The notes below the pieces were generated by a model that had not been told where the DNA came from, did no database searches, and was given only the letters and a program-made list of their open reading frames with translations. Below, piece after piece: positions 5,026 to 41,854 of a stretch of 64,000 nucleotides of DNA; the stretch's first letter is position 1; each line of letters begins with the position of its first letter. The DNA is from a virus: IMG/VR virus record IMGVR_UViG_3300029309_000018, positions 1 through 64,000 of that record. One strand, written 5' to 3'. The position numbers and the translations under genes were made by a program.

Positions 5026-5718
5026 TTAACCTGCCCTTGTGAAACGCTTACCTCTTACAGCAGCACCCCCGCCTCTTGCCATTCCTTTTTTCTTCATTGA
5101 GCCTCCTCTTTTCATGCCTTTGGACTTCATACGCCTCATTGCACCGCCCATAGCCATGCCCTTCTTCTTCATAGCACCGCCTCTTTTCATACCCTTTTTC
5201 TTCATAGAGCCGCCTTTAGCCATGCCCTTTTTCTTCATAGGGCCACCTTTAGCCATGCCCTTCTTCTTCATCATGCCGCCCATTCTTTTCTTTCTCAAAG
5301 AGTCTAACTTTTTAAACTCCTTCATTATTGGGCTAAGTTCCGAAGGCGTCATATCTTTAAATCCACCTGCATCCAGAAACTTTTTGATGGCAGCTCCCGG
5401 CTTTACAGAACCGCCTTTGGCATAACCCTTCTTCATCATGCCACCTTTTTTCATGCCTTTTTTCTTCATAATGCCTCCTTGACGCATTTTTCCTTTGCCG
5501 TCAACGGCAAACGCTGGAACTCTTTTGCCAGTCTTGGGATCTTTGACCATAGGCATCTTACCACCCTTGGACATACCTTTAGACTTCATTGCACCACCAC
5601 GGCGCATTCCTTTTTTCTTCATTGCACCGCCACGCTTCGCAACCTGTGGTGGGTTCTTCTTTTTCTTTGGTTTAGGTTTCCCTGTCTTGGGATCTAATTC
5701 TCTAATTGCTATTGGCAT
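5026..5718 (-). CDS. Lysine/methionine-rich repeat protein
   Basis: A 230-residue, extremely basic protein built from near-repeats of the type MKKKGMxxGG (over ten copies before and after a spacer at about residues 105-145). The spacer is a helical acidic-basic segment (KKFLDAGGFKDMTPSELSPI). It has essentially no other hydrophobic core, so it is probably disordered and binds nucleic acid or an acidic virion surface. It heads a run of small basic genes (5.0-9.05 kb) within the structural operon, suggesting packaging with the DNA or in the tail. At DNA level the repeats produce many imperfect direct repeats at 5080-5640. Confidence 0.6.
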   Translation of the reverse strand: MPIAIRELDPKTGKPKPKKKKNPPQVAKRGGAMKKKGMRRGGAMKSKGMSKGGKMPMVKDPKTGKRVPAFAVDGKGKMRQGGIMKKKGMKKGGMMKKGYAKGGSVKPGAAIKKFLDAGGFKDMTPSELSPIMKEFKKLDSLRKKRMGGMMKKKGMAKGGPMKKKGMAKGGSMKKKGMKRGGAMKKKGMAMGGAMRRMKSKGMKRGGSMKKKGMARGGGAAVRGKRFTRAG

Positions 5719-9711: not shown

Positions 9712-10446
9712 TTAGCCATTAGCAAAGTCAAAAGCTGCACCGTGGACCTTAATTACAATTTTTCCTGCGGTGTAAGCTGCCTCTGTTGCATCTCCTGATG
9801 TCAGATACAAAAACTTTTTAGTCAAAGCTGCCAGTGTAGATCCTGCGTCTGCTTCGTTATGAAGGCCAAGTGTTAGGTCACCATTATTAAACAGAACTGT
9901 GCCGCTTGTTACAGCAGCGTTTTCTGCCGTTGTGCCTGTTGCAGAACAAACCAGATTAATATCTGGGTCACCGCCAGTTGGAACCTCAAGACAGATAAAC
10001 TCTAACTTGTAAGGTATGCCGTTAACTTCTTTTGTTAACTCTGCGATGTAAGCATTCGCTGCGCCACCATCAGTTCCGATAACATCATCGGCAGTGCCAC
10101 CTGATGCCAATCCACCGTGAAGATCAACAAGAATGGTTGTGACAATGTCTCCACCAATCTTGTTTATAAAGGTGTTGATAGCTGCGTTAGCAATTCCAGA
10201 TCCATGTGCATTTGGTGTGACATTAAAGATTGTAGCTGCTGTGCCTAAGCTGGCGTTGTTTGCGCCAACGGTTGTTCCTGCCGCAACAATGTTATCGCGA
10301 CCAGAAGTTGCAACCTTCTGAACCTCTAAAACACCGCTGCTTGTTGAGTTGATTTGCTCTGTAAAAGCGCCTGTAGTTGCATTCTTAGATACAACTTTAA
10401 ATCCATTTTCGGAACGCACTGCTCCGTTAAAAGTGGTAGTAGCCAT
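9712..10446 (-). CDS. Structural protein next to major capsid gene
   Basis: A 244-residue, Ala/Gly/Thr-rich protein that starts MATTTFNGAVRSENGFKVVS and contains the strand-rich segments KEVNGIPYKLEFICLEVP and KLVTS-type loops. It ends just before a hairpin terminator and begins downstream of a second one (10517-10544), so it forms its own short transcription unit after the capsid gene. Position and composition suggest a capsid decoration or abundant virion protein; there is no catalytic motif. Confidence 0.55.
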   Translation of the reverse strand: MATTTFNGAVRSENGFKVVSKNATTGAFTEQINSTSSGVLEVQKVATSGRDNIVAAGTTVGANNASLGTAATIFNVTPNAHGSGIANAAINTFINKIGGDIVTTILVDLHGGLASGGTADDVIGTDGGAANAYIAELTKEVNGIPYKLEFICLEVPTGGDPDINLVCSATGTTAENAAVTSGTVLFNNGDLTLGLHNEADAGSTLAALTKKFLYLTSGDATEAAYTAGKIVIKVHGAAFDFANG

Positions 10447-10516
10447 GTGAAACTCCTGTCTTGGCTAGTGTCAGCCACAGGATGCGGCTGTCAGGGTTTA
10501 AAACAGTATAACAAAA

Positions 10517-22606: not shown

Positions 22607-22753
22607 ATGATTTGCCAAAACCCATACTGCGAAGAACAGGCCACCCACAAAGCGCCGCACGATGAGCATTATTGCTCTGAGTGCATCCATGAACACGTTT
22701 ATGATGATTGTGACCCTGACCCATCAAAAAGCTACCTGACGAGCGGTGCGTGA
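22607..22753 (+). CDS. 48-residue Cys-rich zinc protein
   Basis: Short frame from ATG 22607, with TTTGGAG upstream. It encodes MICQNPYCEEQATHKAPHDE then HYCSECIHEHVYDDC, containing CxxxxC and CxxC pairs with several His, like a small treble-clef or ribbon. The gene is isolated between a terminator and the ATPase leader. Function unknown. Confidence 0.55.
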   Translation: MICQNPYCEEQATHKAPHDEHYCSECIHEHVYDDCDPDPSKSYLTSGA

Positions 22754-22826
22754 GACACACCCGAAACCCCAGCCCTGCTGGGTTCGTAGCGTCTTGTTAC
22801 ATTTCAACCTTAATGGAGACTGCGTG

Positions 22827-23861
22827 ATGAAATTATCACAAGCTAAGAATATCGTTATGGCTTCAATAGATAGCCAGATCCAGCACGCTGCTGGCCGTGA
22901 TGCCCAGCGTGTTGTCCCTTACCTTATTGGCGGTGCTGGTCTGGGCAAGACCTCAATCGTTCAGCAGATTTCCGAAGAGCGTGAGCATGGTTGCTATATC
23001 CTGTCTCTCGCCCAGTTTGATGCCGCTGAACTGGCTGGCATCATTGCCTTGGTTGATGGTGAGGCCAAGCGCATCATGCCGCACTGGCTTGCAAAGATCC
23101 ATGAGATGGCTTCCAAAATGGAAGCGGTATACTTGTTTGGGGACGAAGTCGTACAATCGCCGGTCAGCAATCAGAACGTGTGGGCGCAGGTAGTGAATGA
23201 GCGGCGCATAGGCGAGTTCAAACTGCCTGACAATTGCGCTATCATTGCCGCTGGCAATCGCACCAGTGACCGCGCTGGCACAAACACGATGCCAACGCAT
23301 CTGCGAGACAGATTATTATTCGTACCTGTCGAAGCCGATCTGGAAGATGTTATCCCATACTGGCTGGCTCAAAATGTCCATGAGGATGTGATCGGTTTCA
23401 ATCGTGCAATGCCTCAACATCTGCACAATTTTGATGCAAAGGCTGACGTTTCATCCAGCCCACGTTCATGGGATCGTGTCAGCACCATTTTATCATGGGG
23501 CTTAGATCCGGTGTGTGAGGCTGAAGCAATAAGCGGCACTGTGGGACGTTCGATATGCGCTGATTTCATGGGCTATCGCAAGCTAAAGGCTCACATGCCT
23601 GATCTGGACAAGATTGTCAGCAACCCTGACAGTGCGGAGATACCCACTGATGCTATGGTGCTGTATGCTTTGGCATCCGGTCTGGCTCACAAGATGAACC
23701 AATCTAACGCTGGCAATATCATCAAGTATCTAAAGCGGCTTGATCAGCAGGAGTTCGCGGCGTTCGCTGTTAAAGATGCGGTCAATCGTGACCCTGAGTT
23801 GAAGAAGTCTGAGGCTGTACGCCAATGGATCATCACTGATGGCAAACAGCTTATCCTGTAA
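22827..23861 (+). CDS. MoxR-type AAA+ ATPase
   Basis: Start at ATG 22827, preceded by the repeated AATGGAGACTGC element. About 344 residues. Walker A GGAGLGKTS at residues 35-43, Walker B region VYLFGDEVV with Asp106-Glu107, sensor-1-like IIAAGNRT at about 139-146, and RDRLLFVPVE as the arginine-finger region. The remainder is helical, as in MoxR-family proteins (RavA, MoxR), which remodel proteins or insert metal cofactors and act with a VWA partner. That partner is encoded directly downstream (23925-25067). Confidence 0.8.
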   Translation: MKLSQAKNIVMASIDSQIQHAAGRDAQRVVPYLIGGAGLGKTSIVQQISEEREHGCYILSLAQFDAAELAGIIALVDGEAKRIMPHWLAKIHEMASKMEAVYLFGDEVVQSPVSNQNVWAQVVNERRIGEFKLPDNCAIIAAGNRTSDRAGTNTMPTHLRDRLLFVPVEADLEDVIPYWLAQNVHEDVIGFNRAMPQHLHNFDAKADVSSSPRSWDRVSTILSWGLDPVCEAEAISGTVGRSICADFMGYRKLKAHMPDLDKIVSNPDSAEIPTDAMVLYALASGLAHKMNQSNAGNIIKYLKRLDQQEFAAFAVKDAVNRDPELKKSEAVRQWIITDGKQLIL

Positions 23862-23869
23862 CACCTTGG

Positions 23870-23888
23870 GGGGCGGCATGACCGCCCC
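23870..23888 (+). terminator. GC-rich hairpin after the ATPase
   Basis: GGGGCGG-CATGA-CCGCCCC, 7-bp stem, between the ATPase stop and a palindrome copy. T-run is weak, so partial termination or separation of expression levels is possible. Confidence 0.5.
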
Positions 23889-23891
23889 TCA

Positions 23892-23909
23892 AAAGTTTCA
23901 TGTAACTTT
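23892..23909. repeat. Dispersed 18-bp palindrome, copy 6
   Basis: AAAGTTTCATGTAACTTT, 15 bases before the ATG of 23925-25067 and directly ahead of its ribosome site. Confidence 0.7.
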
Positions 23910-23924
23910 TTTGGGAGATGCACA

Positions 23925-25067
23925 ATGGATGCAAATCTAAAGATTGCCAGAGCGAAGACACAGTTGGTTATCAAGCACCCATTCTTCGGGTCTGTCGCTA
24001 TGGGTCTCAACTTTGTCGAGACTGACGCGGTTCCGACAATGGCAACCGATGGCAAGTCCATCCTCTGGAATGCCGCCTTTGTCGATAGCTTTGATCAAGA
24101 TGTGATCATGGGCGTGATTGCACACGAGGTGTTGCACGTTGCTTTCAAGCACTGCTTGCGTATCGGTGATCGTGACCACAAAAAATGGAATGTCTGCACT
24201 GACATTGCTATCAATGACATCCTGATATCTGACGGCTTTCAGTTGCCGCCTGATGGCTTGTTCCACACCAGCAAGCCTGAGTGGGAGCAGTACAAAGACT
24301 GGGCGGCAGAGCGTATCTATTCGCACATGCCTGACGATGATATGCCAGAGGACGCACCTACATGGGGCGGCGTTCAGCAGACTGAGGGTGACGATGGTCA
24401 GCCACTATCTGAGGCTGAGGCCAAGCAGATCGAAGCGGAGATGGACATCAAAGTGATGATGGCGGCTGATGCGGCCAAGGCCAAAGGCAACATCCCTGCC
24501 AAGATCGATCAGCTTGTACAGGTGATGCGGCGTTGTCAAATCGACTGGCGTGATGTCCTTAACCGATTTATCGGCGGTGATCAGCCTGACGATTACACAT
24601 GGCGTAGGCCACAAAAGAATGCTTGGTTCAATCAGGGTGTATACTTGCCCAGCGTGGACAAGCTGGGTGCCGGTGATGTGATCGTCTATGTTGATACATC
24701 CGGCTCTGTATCAGGTGGCGAACTATCTCACTTCCTTGGTGAGATGAACGCCATCACTGAAGATCAGAAGCCACGCTCTGTCACGGTGATCACTTGTGAT
24801 ACCAAGGTTGGCACTGTTCACAGATATGAGCAAGGCGAGGTGATTGAGAAGATTGAGATCAATGGCCGTGGCGGCACTAGGGTTACCCCGGTGTTTGACT
24901 ACATCGAAGATCATCAGTTGCCTTGTGACAACTTTGTCGGGCTGACTGACTTGGAAATATCTGACTTCCCCGATGCACCTGACTTTCCAGTGCTTTGGGT
25001 TTCAACCGATATCGGTAGTGACCGCGCCCCTTGGGGTGAGGTCGCTATCCTCAAAATGGGAGATTGA
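23925..25067 (+). CDS. Metallopeptidase-like plus VWA-domain protein (DUF2201-like)
   Basis: A 380-residue protein. N-terminal half: DVIMGVIAHEVLHVAFKHCL with HExxH (His67, Glu68, His71), the zincin-like part of the DUF2201 family. Linker about 135-195 is acidic. C-terminal half: VIVYVDTSGSVSGGELSHFL, a VWA-type metal-ion site (DTSGS, residues 257-261), with strands and ISDFPDAPDFPVLW later. Such proteins pair with MoxR ATPases. Likely a protein-remodelling pair acting on a phage or host complex; substrate unknown. Confidence 0.75.
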   Translation: MDANLKIARAKTQLVIKHPFFGSVAMGLNFVETDAVPTMATDGKSILWNAAFVDSFDQDVIMGVIAHEVLHVAFKHCLRIGDRDHKKWNVCTDIAINDILISDGFQLPPDGLFHTSKPEWEQYKDWAAERIYSHMPDDDMPEDAPTWGGVQQTEGDDGQPLSEAEAKQIEAEMDIKVMMAADAAKAKGNIPAKIDQLVQVMRRCQIDWRDVLNRFIGGDQPDDYTWRRPQKNAWFNQGVYLPSVDKLGAGDVIVYVDTSGSVSGGELSHFLGEMNAITEDQKPRSVTVITCDTKVGTVHRYEQGEVIEKIEINGRGGTRVTPVFDYIEDHQLPCDNFVGLTDLEISDFPDAPDFPVLWVSTDIGSDRAPWGEVAILKMGD

Positions 25068-33069: not shown

Positions 33070-33276
33070 ATGATAGAGAATTACAGAAGAGTTCAAGTGA
33101 AGTTGAAAGATTTGATAGATGAAATATGGAAGCATCCTGAGATTTGTTTATCAGATACAAATAATTTGGATGAATTTGTAAATAGCGTTCTTGAGGCTGA
33201 AAGCAACTTGAACAAATTGATATCATCTTTGGAAATGAAAGGACAAGAAGATGACTGTAACGAAAAAGACTGGTAA
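33070..33276 (+). CDS. Small helical protein
   Basis: A 68-residue, all-helical, acidic protein (MIENYRRVQVKLKDLIDEIW, SVLEAESNLNKLISSLEMKG). Upstream a TTGACA at 33043 could be part of a promoter that also serves the RAMP-like gene, but its -10 is unclear. It overlaps the RAMP-like gene by 26 bases, so the two are coupled and it may be a partner of that system. Confidence 0.5.
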   Translation: MIENYRRVQVKLKDLIDEIWKHPEICLSDTNNLDEFVNSVLEAESNLNKLISSLEMKGQEDDCNEKDW

Positions 33277-34015
33277 TGAAACCATAGAACTACACGCACT
33301 AAAGCAAGGTCGCATCACATTGCGTATGATTGGTCAAACACCATTGTACTTTAATTCGATGTCTGCCAAGTCAAAGCGTGATCTTTTAATTGGTGGTGGT
33401 AAGAAAACTGCCGCACAAAAAAAAGAAATCAAACACAATCCTGAGCAAGAGTTTCAAGATAGTGTTTACACACAATCCAAAGGAGACACTTTACTTTGTT
33501 TTCCTGCGGCTGGTGTTAAACAGGCGATGGCTACTGCGGCACTGGAGACAGGTGGTATCACCAAGTCTAGTGTACAGCGTCTGATTTTTCTTCCACAAAG
33601 TCACATCAATATTTGGGGCAAGCCCTATTTGAAGATGGATGTTGTTCGCTCTGCTGACATGAACAAAACACCTGATGTACGGACAAGGGCATTTCTGCCT
33701 GAGTGGTGTGCAGAGGTTGAGATACGCTTTGTCACCCCAACACTTGGGGGCATGGGTATTACGTCTTTGTTGCAGAACGCTGGAACCATATGTGGCATAG
33801 GTGACTTTCGCCAAGAAAAAGGCAAAGGTGGCTATGGCACATGGACAGTATGCAGTGCTGAAGAGATGGAAGAGTTCCAAGATATCTGGGATCAAATCAC
33901 AAAAGAAGGTCGTGATATCCAAGAGATCGCTATGCAACAGCCTGTGTGTTTTGATGAAGAAACAGCAGAACTGATGCAGTTGTTGCAAGAAGAAAGGATA
34001 CGCCGTGCGGCGTAA
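33251..34015 (+). CDS. RAMP/Cas7-like RNA-binding protein (putative)
   Basis: A 254-residue protein. Three features recall the RAMP superfamily (Cas5/6/7, Csm3): a strand RITLRMIGQTPLYFNSMSAK near the N-terminus; FPAAGVKQAMATAAL at about residues 84-98, resembling the PGSSLKG-type helix; and a Gly-rich loop GIGDFRQEKGKGGYGTW at about 182-198, like the RAMP glycine loop. No Cas nuclease or CRISPR is nearby. AAAGGACAAGAAG precedes the ATG. It overlaps the helical gene before it and ends 9 bases before a hairpin and the repeat array, so it is the likely array-binding protein. Family by motif resemblance only. Confidence 0.6.
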   Translation: MTVTKKTGNETIELHALKQGRITLRMIGQTPLYFNSMSAKSKRDLLIGGGKKTAAQKKEIKHNPEQEFQDSVYTQSKGDTLLCFPAAGVKQAMATAALETGGITKSSVQRLIFLPQSHINIWGKPYLKMDVVRSADMNKTPDVRTRAFLPEWCAEVEIRFVTPTLGGMGITSLLQNAGTICGIGDFRQEKGKGGYGTWTVCSAEEMEEFQDIWDQITKEGRDIQEIAMQQPVCFDEETAELMQLLQEERIRRAA

Positions 34016-34026
34016 TAAAGTGATGG

Positions 34027-34044
34027 GGGCGGTGAAAGCCGCCC
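34027..34044 (+). promoter_or_regulatory. Hairpin between RAMP-like gene and array
   Basis: GGGCGG-TGAAAG-CCGCCC, 6-bp stem right after the RAMP-like stop. Its left arm contains GGCGGT, the array anchor, and the right arm CCGCC is complementary to every anchor. Could be a terminator of the usual phage type or a leader element of the array. Confidence 0.5.
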
Positions 34045-34057
34045 TCTTCAAACGGTC

Positions 34058-34488
34058 AAGGCGGTTGAGTTCTGTTGAGTTAGGGTTTGCTCAGGAAGTT
34101 CTGGTGTGGCAAGGCGTGTTAGGGCGGTTGAGTTCTGGCGAGTTCTGGCGATTTTTGTTTCGTTCTGGCATGGCGGTTTCGGCGGGGCTGGCTGGGTTTG
34201 GTCAGGTGCGTTACGGTCAGTCATGGCGGTCGGGGTTCGGCATGTTTTGGTGTTGTCCGGTTAGTCGCGGTAAGTTTAGGCGGTCAAGTCGGGGTCTGGC
34301 ACGGTGAGTAGAGATATGGTTTGGTATGGCGGTCACGGTAAGATTATCTCTGTTGAGTCGGGTTATGTTGTGGCGTGGCGGTTTCGGCATGGTCAGGTCT
34401 GGCAGGGTTAGACGAGGTTTGTTGTGGCGGTTCTGTTACGGCAAGTTATGGTCAGGCTGGGTATGTTGCGGTGTGGCGGTCTAGTTAA
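34058..34488 (+). repeat. Regular G/T-rich array: 49-bp units, NNGKY pentamers
   Basis: Nine anchors GGCGGTY begin at 34060, 34123, 34172, 34225, 34279, 34328, 34377, 34426 and 34475: gaps 63, 49, 53, 54, 49, 49, 49, 49. Each standard unit is a 9-base NNGGCGGTY plus eight pentamers of form N-N-G-(G/T)-(C/T). Of about 68 pentamers, nearly all have G at position 3, while positions 1-2 use all four bases and positions 4-5 rarely use A. No unit is an exact copy of another. G-rich on the plus strand, no conserved coding frame. Function unknown; an array of short guide- or ligand-like RNAs or a protein-binding array is the main idea. Confidence 0.85.
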
Positions 34489-34505: not shown

Positions 34506-35000
34506 ATGAGTAGATTTAATAAAGCTACAAAACAAAAGATAATTGATGATTATCTTAATAAGACTGGCAGGAACATCTGTATTCCAGATGAACTTGTTGC
34601 GTGGATGAAAACACAGACTGATCATGAGGCTTATGATATCTTCACTTGGGATGAAGAAGAAGCCGCACATGCTCATCGTGTAGATCAGGCTAGGCGTTTC
34701 ATTAGTGGGCTTCGCATAACCATAAAGACTGAGATCATAGAAAGTGAGGTCAGGGCTATCAAGGTGACTGAGTACCCTGCTTTCATATCTCCTCGCTCTA
34801 CTAGGAAGGAAGGCGGCGGCTATGTGCCTTTCAATCCGGATGATGAGATGTCACAGTCGGAGTTACGCAAACAGGCTGGCATAGCACTGGCAGGATGGCT
34901 CAACAGGTATCGTGGATGTGCTGAGAATATCGGCTTGGACATGGATAATGTTGAAGAAATGGTTAGGGTCTTGCGTGATGACAAAGAAGAAGCCGCCTAA
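34506..35000 (+). CDS. Conserved helical protein beside the array
   Basis: A 164-residue protein: KATKQKIIDDYLNKTGRNIC, then YDIFTWDEEEAAHAHRVDQA and RRFISGLRITIKTEIIESEV, then EYPAFISPRSTRKEGGGYVP and a helical end. I recall the W-D..AA..R..QAR pattern and a PxxISP..R..GGGY motif in phage proteins of unknown function. AAAGGAC lies before the ATG. It follows the array at 20 bases, so it is the probable third component of this locus. Confidence 0.6.
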   Translation: MSRFNKATKQKIIDDYLNKTGRNICIPDELVAWMKTQTDHEAYDIFTWDEEEAAHAHRVDQARRFISGLRITIKTEIIESEVRAIKVTEYPAFISPRSTRKEGGGYVPFNPDDEMSQSELRKQAGIALAGWLNRYRGCAENIGLDMDNVEEMVRVLRDDKEEAA

Positions 35001-35250
35001 AGAACTTGGGTATCATTGCTTCATAAGTCTTGATTGCGTTGATATGCCCTTGGCACACAAGTTTAAAATAATAGAAAACTTAGAAAAGTTAGGGGTCGAT
35101 TTGATCCCTAACTTTCATACACAACAATGCAAAGTATGCTATAAGACCTTCATCTCTAAGCGGTCGGACACTATGTATTGTTCTGATGCCTGTAATACTA
35201 GATATCTGAGAAACAAAAAAGTTACAGGTAACTTTACAAATCTTTCATAA
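34978..35250 (+). CDS. Zinc-finger protein
   Basis: Start at ATG 34978 (MTKKKPPKELGYHCFISLDC); the frame is open further upstream but overlaps the previous gene. About 90 residues. CKVCYKTF and YCSDACNTRYL give four Cys in the FCS/treble-clef arrangement. It overlaps the preceding gene by 23 bases and its end overlaps the giant gene's 3' end. Possibly a DNA-binding regulator; the C-terminus holds palindrome copy 10. Confidence 0.6.
   Translation: MTKKKPPKELGYHCFISLDCVDMPLAHKFKIIENLEKLGVDLIPNFHTQQCKVCYKTFISKRSDTMYCSDACNTRYLRNKKVTGNFTNLS
35218..35235. repeat. Dispersed 18-bp palindrome, copy 10
   Basis: AAAGTTACAGGTAACTTT, at the junction of the zinc-finger gene and the convergent giant gene. 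Confidence 0.7.
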
Positions 35251-38200
35251 GAACATTGCCTCGTTGGACAATAGTTTCTACTTGCTCACTCATTCTCTCA
35301 AGTATCTTTTGTTTCTGCTCTTCTGGTATCCTTGGATTGTCCTTGATCTGAGCCATCTTCCGAAGGAGCCTGTTCCGTCCGTTGTTGATAGATTTTATGG
35401 CTCCTGCGATACGCAGCTCGTCTGCATATTTTTCTCTCGCTCTATCAATTAAGGCTCGGTCACCTCTTTCCAGACCATCCATCAGCACTTCTCTTGCTTG
35501 CAGGACTCTGTCTCTCTTGTCTATGTATGTGCTTAAATCTTCTCTGTTAGACACTGAGTACACAACCTTTCTGGTAAAAGGTATTTTTCTGGTCATGTCA
35601 TCTGAGAAGCCCTCTTCCAAAGCCTTTGGCAGTGTGACAGCGGCAAAGTCACCTGTCATTTGAGTAAATCTTCCTATGCCACCTGTTAGATAGCCCACCC
35701 AGAACTCAATAACATCAGGAGATACATCAAGCGTTCCTTTTTCTATGGTAGATCCATCAAGACTATTCAGCCAGTTCGCTATCCACTTGGCCGAAGGGGA
35801 TGTCGTTGACCAGTACAACTGACTATCAGGTGGCGGTGTAGGATCAAATGGAGATGTCTCTTTATATATTGGCTTATTAGCAAAGTCCTCGTTTTGCACT
35901 AAATCAATAAACGGATCTGCTACTGTGGGCGCTACAAAGTTAGCAAAACTTTCTGTGCCACCCAAAGGATTTAGCGTGTCGATCATTGTCATTATGGCTG
36001 AGTCTGCGGCTTCCGATGGAGAGTATCCACCTCTTACCATTCTGCTGAGTGAGCGCCCGATATTTACTGCCATGTTTAAACCATAAGGCATGGGTATGGT
36101 TATGTGAGATCTGTCTGTAACTCCAATTGGGTCACGAAATATTATATTATGCTCTAGTATGTAATCTGGGACTTTGTCATAAACCAACTGACCATCTTCA
36201 TCCTCTTCTGAAAAAGCAGCATTCACCTGATCTAACACAAGACCAGAAACCATTAGGCCAACCCATATCTTGCGAACCTTAGCAGATCTAGTTGCTGCAC
36301 TAAGCATGGCAAACGTGCCTTGGAGAGAAGCATTGTAGAACAGATACATGGAGTTCATGAGGGTTTTGTATTCACCGCCCTTAGCAAAATCCACTGTCAC
36401 ATTACGAGCGGCAAAGGCGGCTCTTTGCTCTCCTATTCTTGGGGCAAGAGCCTTGAAGGTGGCAACACGGATAGCGTTCTCAGCAACGGTGTTGTAATCC
36501 TCTAGAAACTTCAACATGCTCCCGGTCTTTTTGCCTATGAAACTATTTTTAACAGCGTTCCACTGACCCCTTGCACCCTGTTCCGCGATATCATCAGTCA
36601 GCTTTTTAATATTTGCTATCTGATCACTTAGATCGCTGATCTGATTTGTGGCATTCTGACCACCAGCTCTTTGGAATCTTCTGAAAAGAGCCGCGCCTGT
36701 GAGTTCTGATACAGGAATATTAGGATCGTCTTGGACATTCTCGTCATCCCTAATCACTCTCCTCAAAGAGCCAAAAGCCTCTTTCATGTTTCTTGCAACT
36801 TCTGATGTCAGCCCTTTTATTTCATACTGATTTACGTTGACACCTGCTGTCTGTATGTCTCTGAACAAGTTTGTTATAATAAACTCAGGGTTTAGAGATG
36901 TATTAATGTTGGAAAGATATCTGTTTATCTTACCAAGACCTCTAACAACGGCGTTTGATGTCTGTGTCGAGACACCCGTGCTACCCTTCAAAGCATTTGC
37001 CAGTCTTCGATCCCTAACCTCTATGTAAACATGCTTGCCGTTCTCTTTTACGGCAACGATGTTTGGATCGTTCATAGCATTTCTGTCAACTATCGTCCTG
37101 ACAGAACCCTTCACAAGACCTCTTGTAAGAGGGATGCTATCCAACTCTTGTGCAAACTGACTGGTTATTTGCTTGTCTGCTCGCAGTAATTTCAAAAATG
37201 ACAAACCAACTTTATTACGCTCTGATCTTATGACTGCGTTTTGATTTTGCAGGAAGGTAGCGGCTAATATGTTTGTTGCATATTCCTGCCTGCCAAGAGC
37301 CTTTCTGTCTTCCCTGCCCCTTACTGAATATCCTTTGTTAGTGACTGCTCCTGTGTAGTATCCGTCTTCAGACGCTTCGCCATCTGAATCGAATATGCCC
37401 CTGAGAGGTACATAGTTATCGTACTGAGGAGGTTGTTTAACCTCACCACTTTCAAGAGTGATAGGCTCGTTGCTGTTAAAATCAGGTGTCAGACCAGATG
37501 CAACTCTTATAGCGTTCGTATCATCGACTACCTCACGCACACTCTCCCTTATGTTAGAGAGCAGATCCCTGTTGCTTGGATCTAGCGAATCTACCCACGA
37601 CAGGATGTAGTCTGCTTCGGCATCTGTCATGCCTGATCCGTTGTCTAGGTCATTGTTAATGGAGCTTATGTATGCGTTTCTTTCTTTGGCATGTAATGCG
37701 TATAAGAAAGCATCCACCACTGCCATTCTCTTGCTTCCAGTCTCTTTCAATGACTGGGCGGCATAGCTACCCTTGTCAAACTCGTTGCTGAAGCTACGCC
37801 CCTCCAATCTTGCAAAGTCATCATCAGAAACATTTATGTTGCTTACGAGTCTGGCTATAGGCTCGTACATGTCTTTCTGCTTTGAGTTTATTATATCCCC
37901 TGTCTTGCCGTGGAATAATGTCTCTTGAAGATATGTATCCATGCCATCTGCGATGGTCATGCCCTGTTCTTTTAACTTGTCTATCATGATGCCTACAGGC
38001 AGAAAGGCATCTTGGAATTTTGTTATAAATCCCTGAGATATGTCTCTTGCTTTTTGTTCGCTGACCAAGCCACGCAGACCAACAATCTTTGCTATCGTGT
38101 TATATGCAGAAGAGTAGCTTATGTGATTGTTGCTTTCGTTTGCTACAAAACTCGTAGACCCTGTGTCTATCGGTGCGTAAGCTGACCTAGAGAATGATCT

Positions 38201-41200
38201 GCTCAACTTTCTGGCTTTTAAATCTGGATAAGCTGTTCTAACGGAATACACAGGTTGTGGTCTTGTGAATCCAAACTCAGAAAGCACAGCAGGATCTGAA
38301 ACCGTTCCATACTGCAGAGACAGAATTATCTTAGGTGACTTGTGTGTGGGACGAATCCACTCCAGCCTGATGTCTTTGTTGCTTCTGCCCCCATCAGGGA
38401 AAGAAATTACATTCTGACCGTCTTTGTGACCCTGTGAATGCCAAGCAAACATCAACTGTTGTATGGCAGTCTCTACATCTGGAAACTTTGAGTTCTCTGT
38501 TATCTCTTTTTCATGGCCTCTTTCTTGGATGTGATACTTGCCAAATCCAAAAGGTCTACCAGCGGCATCCTCTCCGTGATTACCTGCGAACAACAGCACT
38601 GGCACAGGATTGTTGCCATCTTTGATGACCCCAAACAAAGAGTTGTATCTTTCAAACTTTGGAAACTTCTTCGGTGCCGGTATTGTTGCGAAAGCGTTTG
38701 ATGGAGATGTAGAAAACTTCTTTGTTGAACGCGGCAGCGACTCCAGCATTGACTGTATTTTATCAAGATCCTGAAGCTGTTCTTCGTTTAGATCTCCAAG
38801 AGTAGGCTCATCGTTTTCAAAAAGCTGTATGACCTCAGCTCTGCTGGTGTCTAACTGTCTGTTTACTGAGTTAGGATTAAGAGCCGCTCCATTTTGTGCA
38901 TCAACAGCGTCATCATAATCTAGGAAACGCTCGCCCTCATTGTCTCCATTCTTGTATGTAAACCTTCTTTTCGGGTTGTAATACATGAAGACGACATCAG
39001 GCTCCCCGTTATTGAATGCAGAATACTTTTCTTTATCCCATCCCTCTGGGGCAAACTCGTCATTCCACGATGTTCTTGACCTGATTGTAAAACCATTAGC
39101 GCTGTAGGCACCGGGGAGGAAAGTATCAAATGCATCTAGTTTGTTGCCACCCTCTTCCACAGCCAATCTAATTGCAGAATAGTTAAATCCTGAATGAACT
39201 GGCTTCCTAAGAACGTCACTGATAACTGTTCCTTTTCCACGATCCTGACCCTCTACAAATGGTGTTCTGGGAGTGTTAAAAACAGATACTATGTCTTTCA
39301 CCCCTTCTATTTCACCATCTTTTATTGCAAAGCCAGCTCTGCCATCCTCTGTTAAGAACAGCCTCATGTCAGCATATCCAGTGTCATCCTGATTGGTTTC
39401 TGTAGGATAAACATAAACAGACGCTCCAAGCGGGCCTTGAGCAGTTTTTGCCGCATCTATTGCTTCAGAAAACTGTTGAGCAGATCTTATCGTTTGAGCT
39501 AACTCGTATATCACAGGGACTTTTATTCCCTGTTCGTTATATAATCTTTTTGCAAAGGGTAGTGCTGAATACTCTACAGCTACATCATATCTGCCCACTC
39601 TTCGGCTTGATCTCTGTCTACGCCATACTCGTCCATTATCCCCCGCACCAATCCTGACGGCGATGGTCGCAGCCTTTGCTGGGCTGACGCTGTACTTGAG
39701 GTTTGAGGCGGTATCGACTTCAGCAGACTGTCTGCTAATTCCTCCATCCTCTCGTCCGGCACTTGAGTCAGGGTTGATTCTGTCTCTGTCTGTAGGGGGA
39801 AGTGCTTCTGCAATTTGCTCATCTGTAAATCCTTCTCTTCTGGCGTACTCTATCGCTCCATCAACATAGTCATTATCTGCCCCTGTGCTTTGTGTACCCA
39901 TAGAAGCAAGGAGTCTTTTTTCGTGATACCACATGAGTGCTTGAAAATCGGCATTGTTGATATCTATGCCGGTCTTTTCTTTCAAAAGTTCCCTAGAACT
40001 TTCTGCGGCAAGCCTCATGATATTTCGTTCTGTGCCGTTTCTTGGTGTTGCCTGCTCGAACTTGCCACTTAAATTTTGTGCATGTGTGTCTGCCGCTTGG
40101 AACAAAGGCGTTTTATCTGGTCTCTCATCTGCACGAGCTTTTCCAAATCTATTGAATATCCTTTGGAATTTTGCATTCAAAGCAACGGCAAACTGGTCTA
40201 CATTCTGACCCTCTATTGAGTCAAAACCCTCATCAAGCATTACATCGTCTACAAGGGTTTGCTCAAAATCAGTTAGATCACCCTCAAGAAGATCCTGTAT
40301 TCTTGATCTGTTTTTAGCATTGGTGGCATCTGCGGGTTCTTTGAACGGCTTACCGATGATTCGGTTCCACATACGCATCCACCACATGTCCATAGTGAGA
40401 GCATCGAACTCACCATTTAGATTCATGTAGAAACCGTTGCCTATTTTAGCCCCAAGTATGTGAGCGACTCTGACCTTTGTGTCTTGTAACTCTCCGCTTG
40501 GTATCGTTATGCCAAGCTCTTTTATGAGAGGGTTATTTTTTAACTCTCTTACAGTTGTTTCTTGAGTGAGATAGTTCTGTATTTCTACGTCACTCATTCC
40601 TTTTTTGCTTTTTAGCACGTTATAAAATGCAAATGCCTTACGCATTGCCGCCGCGCCTTTGTCACCGTATCCATCACCCTTGAAGAGACCAGTCTCTTTC
40701 CAGACTTTGTACTCTTCCATAGCACTTACAAAGTTCTGGTTTACAGAGAGTCCATTTGATGTAACAGCCATAGCAAATGTGAATGCTGCCCTAGCTTCCG
40801 GGTCATTTAATATCTGTTGATTGCCGCCCTCAATCTGTCCCATGAACTCAAACATGGTTGCCACTTTATCTTCGTACCAACCGATTGCGTTCTTATCACC
40901 GCGAAGAGCCGCCTCTGCCTCTGCCGCCATGATCATGACTATTTTCTTAAAATCTTTGGGATCTTGAGGATCGAGAGTTATGTTGCCTCGTTCTTCCTGC
41001 AAAAGCCTGAGAGATGTGGCAACTCTTGGCCTTACAACATCACCTCTTTCATTAAAAACCCTAGTGTCGATGAAGTTGCTATTTTCATCAATCCTATGCA
41101 ACACAGATGCTTGCGCCAGCTTTTCACTGATACCCAACTGTGACTTGGCAACATTTGACTTTACCCTTTCAGGAGTTGCCTTGAATGGCTCTATGGAGCT

Positions 41201-41854
41201 TGGAGATGTTGAATATTTGTTGGGACCGTTTACAGGCTTTGTTACAATCCTTTTTCTTGAGCCTAGCTGTTTTGTTCTATCTTCTGTTTTTATGTTTTCA
41301 AATATCGATGCGGCAGAGTCGAAGCCTTCATCGTTATGCGCTCCTGCAATCGCCTTGAAGAACTTTATTATCCTGTCTAAGAGATTCTTTGGCTTACCTG
41401 CAATTTTGAGTCTGCCGTCAGCGTAAGCGCGGAACATTTCAGCAATCGCCTCTTCTTCCAGAAGGCTTTGCATCTGATCTTCGTTAAGGTTTGGATCTGT
41501 CGGGTTTAATAGCTGTGCGCGATCAAAGAACGTGTAAGCTCTTTTCTCCCCTTTGCCCTGTTTAATGGCAACGTACTTTGTATTGCGAGCCGCTTTGACA
41601 AGAGTCTGATATTCTGCATCAGTGAACAGGCCAAGTTCTTTTAGAGCGTGTATGATCTCATGATCCAACACGTTCCTCATGGATGTTACAAACTCATCAT
41701 CAGTCAGGGTGGGGTCATATATTGACATGGCAAGAGATATGGAACGCTTGCTAGGATCAAATACACCCTCAGTATTAGGATCTTTTACTCCTGCCTCTCG
41801 CTCTATGTAGTCATCTACACTAAGAGCAACGTCACCAATACCAAGGCTCCGCAT
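35234..41854 (-). CDS. Giant polyvalent protein, downstream part (zincin and LPD-like domains)
   Basis: 2206 residues from ATG 41854, but the frame is open to 42007 and continues a coiled coil, so this is probably the C-terminal 80 percent of a larger protein. Residues 60-72 hold NVLDHEIIHALK with HExxH at 65-69 (zincin). About 1085-1235 hold GFGKYHIQERGHEKEI, a segment like toxin/nuclease-type domains of polyvalent proteins. Near 1660-1690 INTSLNPEFIITNLFRDIQT resembles the LPD38 domain. Polyvalent proteins are injected with phage DNA. Palindrome copy 11 is inside. Confidence 0.6.
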   Translation of the reverse strand: MRSLGIGDVALSVDDYIEREAGVKDPNTEGVFDPSKRSISLAMSIYDPTLTDDEFVTSMRNVLDHEIIHALKELGLFTDAEYQTLVKAARNTKYVAIKQGKGEKRAYTFFDRAQLLNPTDPNLNEDQMQSLLEEEAIAEMFRAYADGRLKIAGKPKNLLDRIIKFFKAIAGAHNDEGFDSAASIFENIKTEDRTKQLGSRKRIVTKPVNGPNKYSTSPSSIEPFKATPERVKSNVAKSQLGISEKLAQASVLHRIDENSNFIDTRVFNERGDVVRPRVATSLRLLQEERGNITLDPQDPKDFKKIVMIMAAEAEAALRGDKNAIGWYEDKVATMFEFMGQIEGGNQQILNDPEARAAFTFAMAVTSNGLSVNQNFVSAMEEYKVWKETGLFKGDGYGDKGAAAMRKAFAFYNVLKSKKGMSDVEIQNYLTQETTVRELKNNPLIKELGITIPSGELQDTKVRVAHILGAKIGNGFYMNLNGEFDALTMDMWWMRMWNRIIGKPFKEPADATNAKNRSRIQDLLEGDLTDFEQTLVDDVMLDEGFDSIEGQNVDQFAVALNAKFQRIFNRFGKARADERPDKTPLFQAADTHAQNLSGKFEQATPRNGTERNIMRLAAESSRELLKEKTGIDINNADFQALMWYHEKRLLASMGTQSTGADNDYVDGAIEYARREGFTDEQIAEALPPTDRDRINPDSSAGREDGGISRQSAEVDTASNLKYSVSPAKAATIAVRIGAGDNGRVWRRQRSSRRVGRYDVAVEYSALPFAKRLYNEQGIKVPVIYELAQTIRSAQQFSEAIDAAKTAQGPLGASVYVYPTETNQDDTGYADMRLFLTEDGRAGFAIKDGEIEGVKDIVSVFNTPRTPFVEGQDRGKGTVISDVLRKPVHSGFNYSAIRLAVEEGGNKLDAFDTFLPGAYSANGFTIRSRTSWNDEFAPEGWDKEKYSAFNNGEPDVVFMYYNPKRRFTYKNGDNEGERFLDYDDAVDAQNGAALNPNSVNRQLDTSRAEVIQLFENDEPTLGDLNEEQLQDLDKIQSMLESLPRSTKKFSTSPSNAFATIPAPKKFPKFERYNSLFGVIKDGNNPVPVLLFAGNHGEDAAGRPFGFGKYHIQERGHEKEITENSKFPDVETAIQQLMFAWHSQGHKDGQNVISFPDGGRSNKDIRLEWIRPTHKSPKIILSLQYGTVSDPAVLSEFGFTRPQPVYSVRTAYPDLKARKLSRSFSRSAYAPIDTGSTSFVANESNNHISYSSAYNTIAKIVGLRGLVSEQKARDISQGFITKFQDAFLPVGIMIDKLKEQGMTIADGMDTYLQETLFHGKTGDIINSKQKDMYEPIARLVSNINVSDDDFARLEGRSFSNEFDKGSYAAQSLKETGSKRMAVVDAFLYALHAKERNAYISSINNDLDNGSGMTDAEADYILSWVDSLDPSNRDLLSNIRESVREVVDDTNAIRVASGLTPDFNSNEPITLESGEVKQPPQYDNYVPLRGIFDSDGEASEDGYYTGAVTNKGYSVRGREDRKALGRQEYATNILAATFLQNQNAVIRSERNKVGLSFLKLLRADKQITSQFAQELDSIPLTRGLVKGSVRTIVDRNAMNDPNIVAVKENGKHVYIEVRDRRLANALKGSTGVSTQTSNAVVRGLGKINRYLSNINTSLNPEFIITNLFRDIQTAGVNVNQYEIKGLTSEVARNMKEAFGSLRRVIRDDENVQDDPNIPVSELTGAALFRRFQRAGGQNATNQISDLSDQIANIKKLTDDIAEQGARGQWNAVKNSFIGKKTGSMLKFLEDYNTVAENAIRVATFKALAPRIGEQRAAFAARNVTVDFAKGGEYKTLMNSMYLFYNASLQGTFAMLSAATRSAKVRKIWVGLMVSGLVLDQVNAAFSEEDEDGQLVYDKVPDYILEHNIIFRDPIGVTDRSHITIPMPYGLNMAVNIGRSLSRMVRGGYSPSEAADSAIMTMIDTLNPLGGTESFANFVAPTVADPFIDLVQNEDFANKPIYKETSPFDPTPPPDSQLYWSTTSPSAKWIANWLNSLDGSTIEKGTLDVSPDVIEFWVGYLTGGIGRFTQMTGDFAAVTLPKALEEGFSDDMTRKIPFTRKVVYSVSNREDLSTYIDKRDRVLQAREVLMDGLERGDRALIDRAREKYADELRIAGAIKSINNGRNRLLRKMAQIKDNPRIPEEQKQKILERMSEQVETIVQRGNVLMKDL
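39985..40002. repeat. Dispersed 18-bp palindrome, copy 11
   Basis: AAAGTTCCCTAGAACTTT, inside the giant polyvalent gene. Confidence 0.65.

Follow-up and report, generated by a model that had tools for sequence, protein, structure and literature searches.

Computational evidence for a VIPR locus with a dense guide array aimed at rival phages in a marine phage

A 64,000-nucleotide (nt) stretch of viral DNA, positions 1 to 64,000 of IMG/VR record IMGVR_UViG_3300029309_000018 (hereafter the window), contains a pentamer array that was flagged earlier at 34058-34488. We are highly confident that this array and the gene preceding it form a Viral Interference Programmable Repeat (VIPR) locus, in which vipr encodes a RAMP protein and the array would give rise to guide RNAs that bind genes of rival phages and shut down their transcription. 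We assign it to VIPR as a new member, found in a large group of marine phages.

A preprint of April 2026 introduced VIPR as a phage-encoded ancestral RAMP protein, Vipr, with an accessory vap gene (PMC13142463). The guide RNAs (vrRNAs) are built of 9-16 pentamers, each with a conserved GGY and a variable NN pair, and are bound by RAMP-like Vipr subunits. The NN pairs recognise double-stranded DNA with one base skipped between pairs, the skips falling mostly on codon wobble positions, and the complex represses genes of competing phages (PMC13142463). Seven VIPR types, differing in array architecture, are distinguished there (PMC13142463).

The gene upstream of the array encodes a RAMP-fold protein

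The vipr gene (33251..34015, + strand) codes for a 254-amino-acid (aa) RAMP (Cas7/Csm3-like) protein, presumed to be the guide-RNA-binding subunit. Pfam returned no match to this protein, and in PHROGs it matched only a family whose function is unknown; PADLOC and NCBIfam gave no name either to it or to the 164-aa product of the gene that follows the array. By phmmer the protein matched PDB entry 36pp, 'SUSP1 Vipr protein', weakly (E = 0.029); with a profile built from 20 relatives, the match to this entry became significant (E = 3.3e-6). The AlphaFold2 model, computed with 28 relatives as input, had a predicted local distance difference test score (pLDDT) of 78 and a predicted template modelling score of 0.74, with a loop near residues 185-194 falling below pLDDT 50. 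The best 50 Foldseek matches of the model in PDB were all CRISPR RAMP subunits or complexes, mostly of type III-A Csm and type VII (probability mostly at least 0.9 and up to 1.0, E down to 1.6e-4, template modelling scores of 0.30-0.39 on the query). In BFVD the best matches were phage proteins, one of them labelled 'Cas system-associated RAMP superfamily protein'. A glycine-rich motif, G[IL]GDFRQEKG, is conserved across the family.

The model, the Foldseek matches and the homology to SUSP1 Vipr thus identify the product of the upstream gene as a Vipr protein with the RAMP fold, which comprises an RRM core and a glycine-rich loop. It follows that the array is one of VIPR guides (vrRNAs). An earlier note on this DNA, made from the sequence alone, had proposed a selected architecture read by a protein; this proposal is supported, as the adjoining gene encodes a RAMP-fold protein and VIPR RAMPs bind vrRNAs made of GGY/NN pentamers (PMC13142463). 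The evidence points to a five-base protein footprint on the array.

The array holds a pentamer register broken at each anchor

The array (34060..34481, + strand) consists of nine GGCGGTY anchors around eight units made of NN-GKY pentamers. The GGCGGT anchors start at 34060, 34123, 34172, 34225, 34279, 34328, 34377, 34426 and 34475, with successive spacings of 63, 49, 53, 54, 49, 49, 49 and 49 nt. Re-reading of the window reproduced exactly the anchors and spacings given in the earlier note. Its explanation of the longer spacings as added pentamers fails for the 63- and 53-nt units (units 1 and 3), which are not a whole number of pentamers longer since each contains one extra 4-nt register step. 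Every anchor joins NNGGC to GGTY, and because one base of register is lost in this way, unit length is mostly 5n+4, as in 49 = 9x5+4.

Autocorrelation, compared with 500 dinucleotide shuffles, is in excess at lags 5 (z = 4.7), 10 (z = 5.3), 44 (z = 6.7), 49 (z = 7.0) and 54 (z = 6.5) and depleted at lag 7 (z = -5.1). A lack of excess at lags 5 and 49 had been put forward as grounds for abandoning the idea of a selected architecture; the excess is strong, and the objection falls. The longest chain of GKY triplets that keeps the 5-nt register has a score of 58, while 2000 shuffles reach at most 9, and in the best frame the GKY fraction is 0.68 versus 0.33+-0.025 in shuffles. Among distinct 5n+4 units from relatives, pentamer positions 1 to 5 carry 0.04, 0.02, 1.59, 0.67 and 0.84 bits, which bears out the earlier description of NNGKY pentamers with positions 1 and 2 free and 3 to 5 under constraint. 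No open reading frame (ORF) at the array accounts for the 5-base period.

A neutral minisatellite, a simple repeat shaped by slippage or biased mutation, would agree with a tandem, G/T-rich sequence that includes one exact 10-bp duplication. However, the pentamer register is held over hundreds of units with free NN, lengths follow 5n+4, and the target matches described below refute this explanation, already judged the poorer one in the earlier note; its probability is negligible.

A GC-rich hairpin (34025..34046, + strand; RNA folding energy -21.1 kcal/mol, z -4.3) lies between the vipr stop codon and the array and presumably marks either the end of the vipr mRNA or the start of the guide transcript. 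Hairpins of differing sequence occupy the equivalent position in most relatives. No ribozyme from Rfam was found across the loci.

The array accompanies vipr in related phages

At least 80 relatives of the 254-aa gene are present in IMG/VR. A pentamer array was found in 73 of the 80 related contigs, with different guides and invariably downstream of vipr on the vipr strand; in the seven contigs where none was detected, the contig ends at most about 200 nt from the gene or inside it. Thus, related phages keep the array in 73 of the 73 contigs with enough downstream sequence, and the second ground for refutation named in the earlier note, relatives that lack the array, fails as well. Most loci are ordered vipr-array-vap; L064 and L068-L071 have vipr-vap-array instead, and L065 and L067 have vap-vipr-array.

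The vap candidate of the window (34506..35000, + strand) encodes the 164-aa protein. It is linked to vipr and the array in 66 loci, in three gene orders, and would represent the small accessory gene of a VIPR locus. Its AlphaFold2 model (pLDDT 83) gave no significant fold match in PDB, the best being RepE at E 0.18. In a close relative (contig L003, 3639-4000) a small cysteine-containing, zinc-finger-like ORF separates vipr from the array, and a similar ORF is found in the window at 34912-35250, downstream of the vap candidate.

From the arrays 371 distinct units were parsed; among distinct units of at least 34 nt, 302 have length 5n+4. Some units recur in many phages among changing neighbours, with NN identical and K or Y altered, which argues for selection on NN and for reshuffling of arrays.

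Homologs of the 254-aa protein with 28-30% identity, annotated as hypothetical, were also seen in the Gordonia phages Ecliptus (L081:6610-6860) and UmaThurman (L082 from ~6580), whose host is G. terrae. They are directly followed by a pentamer array, in whose best 50-nt windows 10 pentamers out of 10 fit the pattern; GGCGGTY anchors were not seen within the stretch read. These two cultured phages apparently carry unannotated VIPR loci.

NN pairs spell targets in rival phages under a one-base skip

Units were decoded as NN x NN x NN, with one nucleotide skipped between pairs. Several guide families conserved across phages then read, in one frame, as protein motifs. The decoded pattern [FL][RS][FL][HQ][DE][FL][RS][HQ][DE]A[IM] fits LRFHDLRHEAI, which we take to be a motif of tyrosine integrases; TT[IM][RS]YAHLAP presumably is an integrase motif and YFAYGSNMDP a gamma-glutamylcyclotransferase motif, and others resemble what we assume to be known motifs.

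Exact target scans covered 2.9 million viral contigs. The first integrase guide of relatives (family A) gave 25 exact contig matches, and 24 of these have the antisense frame that was predicted. The 24 lie in the HDLRH box of tyrosine integrase, at L(R/T)FHDLRHEAI or one of its close variants, and the skip coincides with the wobble position of the codon; five target ORFs were confirmed as Phage_integrase by Pfam. For unit 8 of the window, five contigs matched exactly, four of them within one DNA polymerase A family at the peptide LTKIHCIAV (18 of 18 bases; target sequence CTNACNAANATNCANTGNATNGCNGT). This peptide sits in the N-terminal, 3'-5' exonuclease-like part of the phage polymerase, and the two full-length target ORFs were assigned to DNA_pol_A with E of 1e-46 and 1e-47. 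Since unit 8 exactly matches the DNA-polymerase gene of another marine phage, the array looks like a weapon in virus-virus fights.

As an independent control, 228 distinct units that had not been used as scan queries were compared with 2.1 Mb of DNA. With a skip of one and the true order of pairs, 17 best matches had E<0.01 and 11 had E<0.001, against 0-4 and 0-1, respectively, when the skip was 0 or 2 or the order was reversed or shuffled. Most of the significant matches were on contigs L109, L111, L112 and L113. On these four rival contigs (22.6 kb) all units together produced 19 matches at E<0.01 and 14 at E<0.001, compared with 0-2 and 0 in eight control settings. The best rival match pairs a 14-NN guide of L003 with YKSNRKGTRKPVGY in an exonuclease-like gene (27 of 28 bases). 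Helicase, DNA polymerase, exonuclease and ribonucleotide-reductase-like genes are present on the rival contigs. These contigs come closest to marine Autographiviridae, for example the Roseobacter phages CRP-804 and CRP-403, which have an integrase; guides of relatives match CRP-403 directly, one of them in the integrase gene. Skip-3 matches were rejected as targets, being array remnants, and the zinc-finger-like guide of relatives had zero matches in the exact viral scan.

The NN positions are thus the message, which the earlier note missed: they spell rival-phage targets under a code that skips one base. As in VIPR, the guides are phage-encoded (the window has terminase, portal and capsid genes) and are aimed at competing mobile elements. 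The target matches exclude CRISPR, an iteron or origin, and a G-quadruplex as the main function of the array.

An array of guides of this general type might act on RNA, either rival mRNA or tRNA, instead of DNA. The relatives of the RAMP found by fold search belong to type III and type VII RNA-targeting complexes, and some guides match tRNA-Arg genes. However, guides match both sense (unit 8, LTKIHCIAV) and antisense (integrase, GGCT) gene strands, which fits DNA targeting better, and the SUSP1 VIPR is described in the preprint as binding double-stranded DNA (PMC13142463). We consider RNA targeting improbable.

A structural array acting at the DNA level (replication origin, partition or recombination site), with a protein contact every half turn and NN irrelevant, is more improbable still. 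The array is intergenic, its strand is G-rich and genes for a Sak annealing protein, exonuclease, RusA and primase-helicase lie nearby, as might be expected of such a site. Conservation of NN in guide families across phages, and matches to rival coding motifs only under the 1-nt skip, contradict it, as does the constant position of the array downstream on the strand of vipr, a RAMP gene.

Guide units of the window

The eight units, all on the + strand, contain 9-12 NN pairs each, and units of relatives mostly 7-15. Unit 1 (34060..34122, 63 nt) has the NN pairs GA CT GA AG TT CA AA CT GT AA GT AG, and unit 2 (34123..34171, 49 nt) GA CT GA CT GA TT TC CT AT. Unit 3 (34172..34224, 53 nt; TC GG CT TG TT CA GC AC CA AT) has CT/TT TG TT CA GC AC CA AT in common with a guide family of relatives. 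Unit 4 (34225..34278, 54 nt) carries GG TC AT TT GT CC TA GC AA TA; its reverse complement, read with a 1-nt skip, gives YFAYGTNMDP, near the YFAYGSNMD motif of gamma-glutamylcyclotransferase-like genes, and a sister unit in contig L022 matches a GGACT-domain ORF of contig L006 at 17 of 18 bases. Units 5 (34279..34327; AA GG CT AC GA GA AT TT AT), 6 (34328..34376; AC AA TA CT GA GG AT GT GT), 7 (34377..34425; TC AT CA CT AG TA GA TT GT) and 8 (34426..34474; CT AC AA AT CA TG AT GC GT, read as LTKIHCIAV) are each 49 nt long. Apart from unit 8, window units gave nothing convincing on the rival contigs, CRP-804, CRP-403, CRP-125 or KM23-C739. When units 2-8 were compared with window DNA outside the array, nothing nearer than 5 mismatches was found.

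Unit 7 belongs to a tRNA-Arg guide family, represented in related arrays by at least 12 distinct units. The core of the family corresponds to tRNA-Arg genes at their 5' end and D-arm. The exact scan with this family matched at least 120 viral contigs; in 78 of the 80 contigs listed, a tRNA-Arg gene, mostly with a UCU anticodon, begins at the edge of the match. The window's own unit 7 departs at the 3' end and has 2-3 mismatches to tRNA-Arg genes, and an exact scan of genome contigs with it gave 6 matches, about the chance level, with no tRNA gene on the fetched stretches. One group of the tRNA-Arg contigs is of podovirus type with a portal resembling that of flavobacterial phages, and so need not be a real rival.

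Comparison with known systems

The locus resembles the VIPR systems of SUSP1 and a Pseudomonas fulva prophage in its phage-encoded RAMP Vipr with sequence homology, its single small accessory gene, its tandem pentamers with a G-rich triplet and variable NN, its 1-nt skip mostly at wobble positions and its targeting of competing mobile elements. It differs in the compact array, where guides are parted only by GGCGGTY and a 4-nt step, in GKY replacing GGY, in a 254-aa Vipr with a C-terminal helical extension, and, for the group as a whole, in targets, which are integrase-carrying marine autographivirus-like phages and tRNA-Arg genes.

Class 1 CRISPR-Cas systems (type III Csm3, type VII Cas7) also have a RAMP fold lining a guide RNA, a guide array and changing targets, but their guide is read continuously, whereas here it is read in pairs of bases with gaps between them. 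No CRISPR repeats, Cas1-Cas2 or other cas genes were found at or next to the array, in agreement with the earlier statement that it is not a CRISPR. TIGR-Tas (PMC12045711) likewise combines a tandem guide array on a phage with a single effector; Tas is related to Nop and box C/D proteins, not to RAMPs, and the guides are not known to follow a pentamer code.

Other features of the window

An Rfam match to Mu-gpT-DE RNA (73 bits) lies at 10444-10496 (- strand), at the start of a 244-aa ORF (9712-10446) adjoining the major head protein gene. A 33-bp tandem repeat (5144-5271) occurs within the coding gene 5026-5718, whose product is rich in KKKGM/GGxM. At 22746-25067, on the early-gene strand, an AAA (MoxR-like) ATPase gene is followed by a 380-aa gene that looks like its VWA/metallopeptidase partner (PHROGs: ATPase; HNH endonuclease label). 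A 2206-aa ORF (35234-41854, - strand), encoding a very long polyvalent-type protein, is convergent with the VIPR locus.

Discussion

In the mechanism that we propose, the array would be transcribed on the + strand after the hairpin at 34025-34046 into vrRNAs. Successive Vipr subunits would grip the GKY triplets, one per pentamer, coating the RNA and leaving the NN pairs to base-pair with DNA, with one target base skipped between pairs. Each inter-anchor stretch, mostly of 7-15 NN pairs, would be one guide, and the GGCGGTY anchor with its 1-base register loss would mark the boundary between guides, where processing may take place. The ribonucleoprotein would bind rival DNA during co-infection or in lysogens and block early and replication genes.

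Several observations weigh against assigning the locus to VIPR. Exact scans of viral contigs gave zero matches for units 5 and 6 and for the full 20-base pattern of unit 4, and a target was not found for units 1, 2 and 3. The rival contigs L109, L111, L112 and L113 were retrieved via unit 8, though the other units that match them played no part in retrieval. Position 4 of the pentamer is G or T, not G. Lastly, no pseudoknot-bearing 3' tail of the kind found in the characterised VIPR clade was seen: only the 7-nt anchor separates units, and the distance from the last anchor to the start codon of vap is ~25 nt. In the preprint, an invariant 3' tail after the repeat tract is shown for the characterised type II VIPR and not stated for all types (PMC13142463); as architecture is said to vary by type, the missing tail concerns the type and not VIPR membership.

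The compact tail-less array with register-breaking anchors and tRNA-Arg guides may be a variant. Staggered arrays with overlapping vrRNAs are mentioned in the preprint as content of its supplement (PMC13142463), so this architecture may already be described and we do not claim a new variant. Tentatively, and at slightly less than even probability, the locus could represent a distinct VIPR architecture: a dense array in which anchor and register loss replace the tail as boundary, with a frequently reshuffled arsenal, kept in a large group of marine phages, that concentrates on the integrase, polymerase and exonuclease of temperate autographivirus-like rivals, plus the tRNA-Arg guide family.

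The analysis independently confirms, from sequence alone, gapped-pentamer guides and 1-nt skip decoding in phages far from the two bench-studied systems. Because units are common to related phages and shuffled among them, guide turnover without known adaptation machinery is open to study. The tRNA-Arg guides pose a new question, namely whether the block falls on a rival tRNA, on its attachment site or on a host gene. Since the guides can be decoded, the arrays offer a record of past conflicts between viruses in the ocean.
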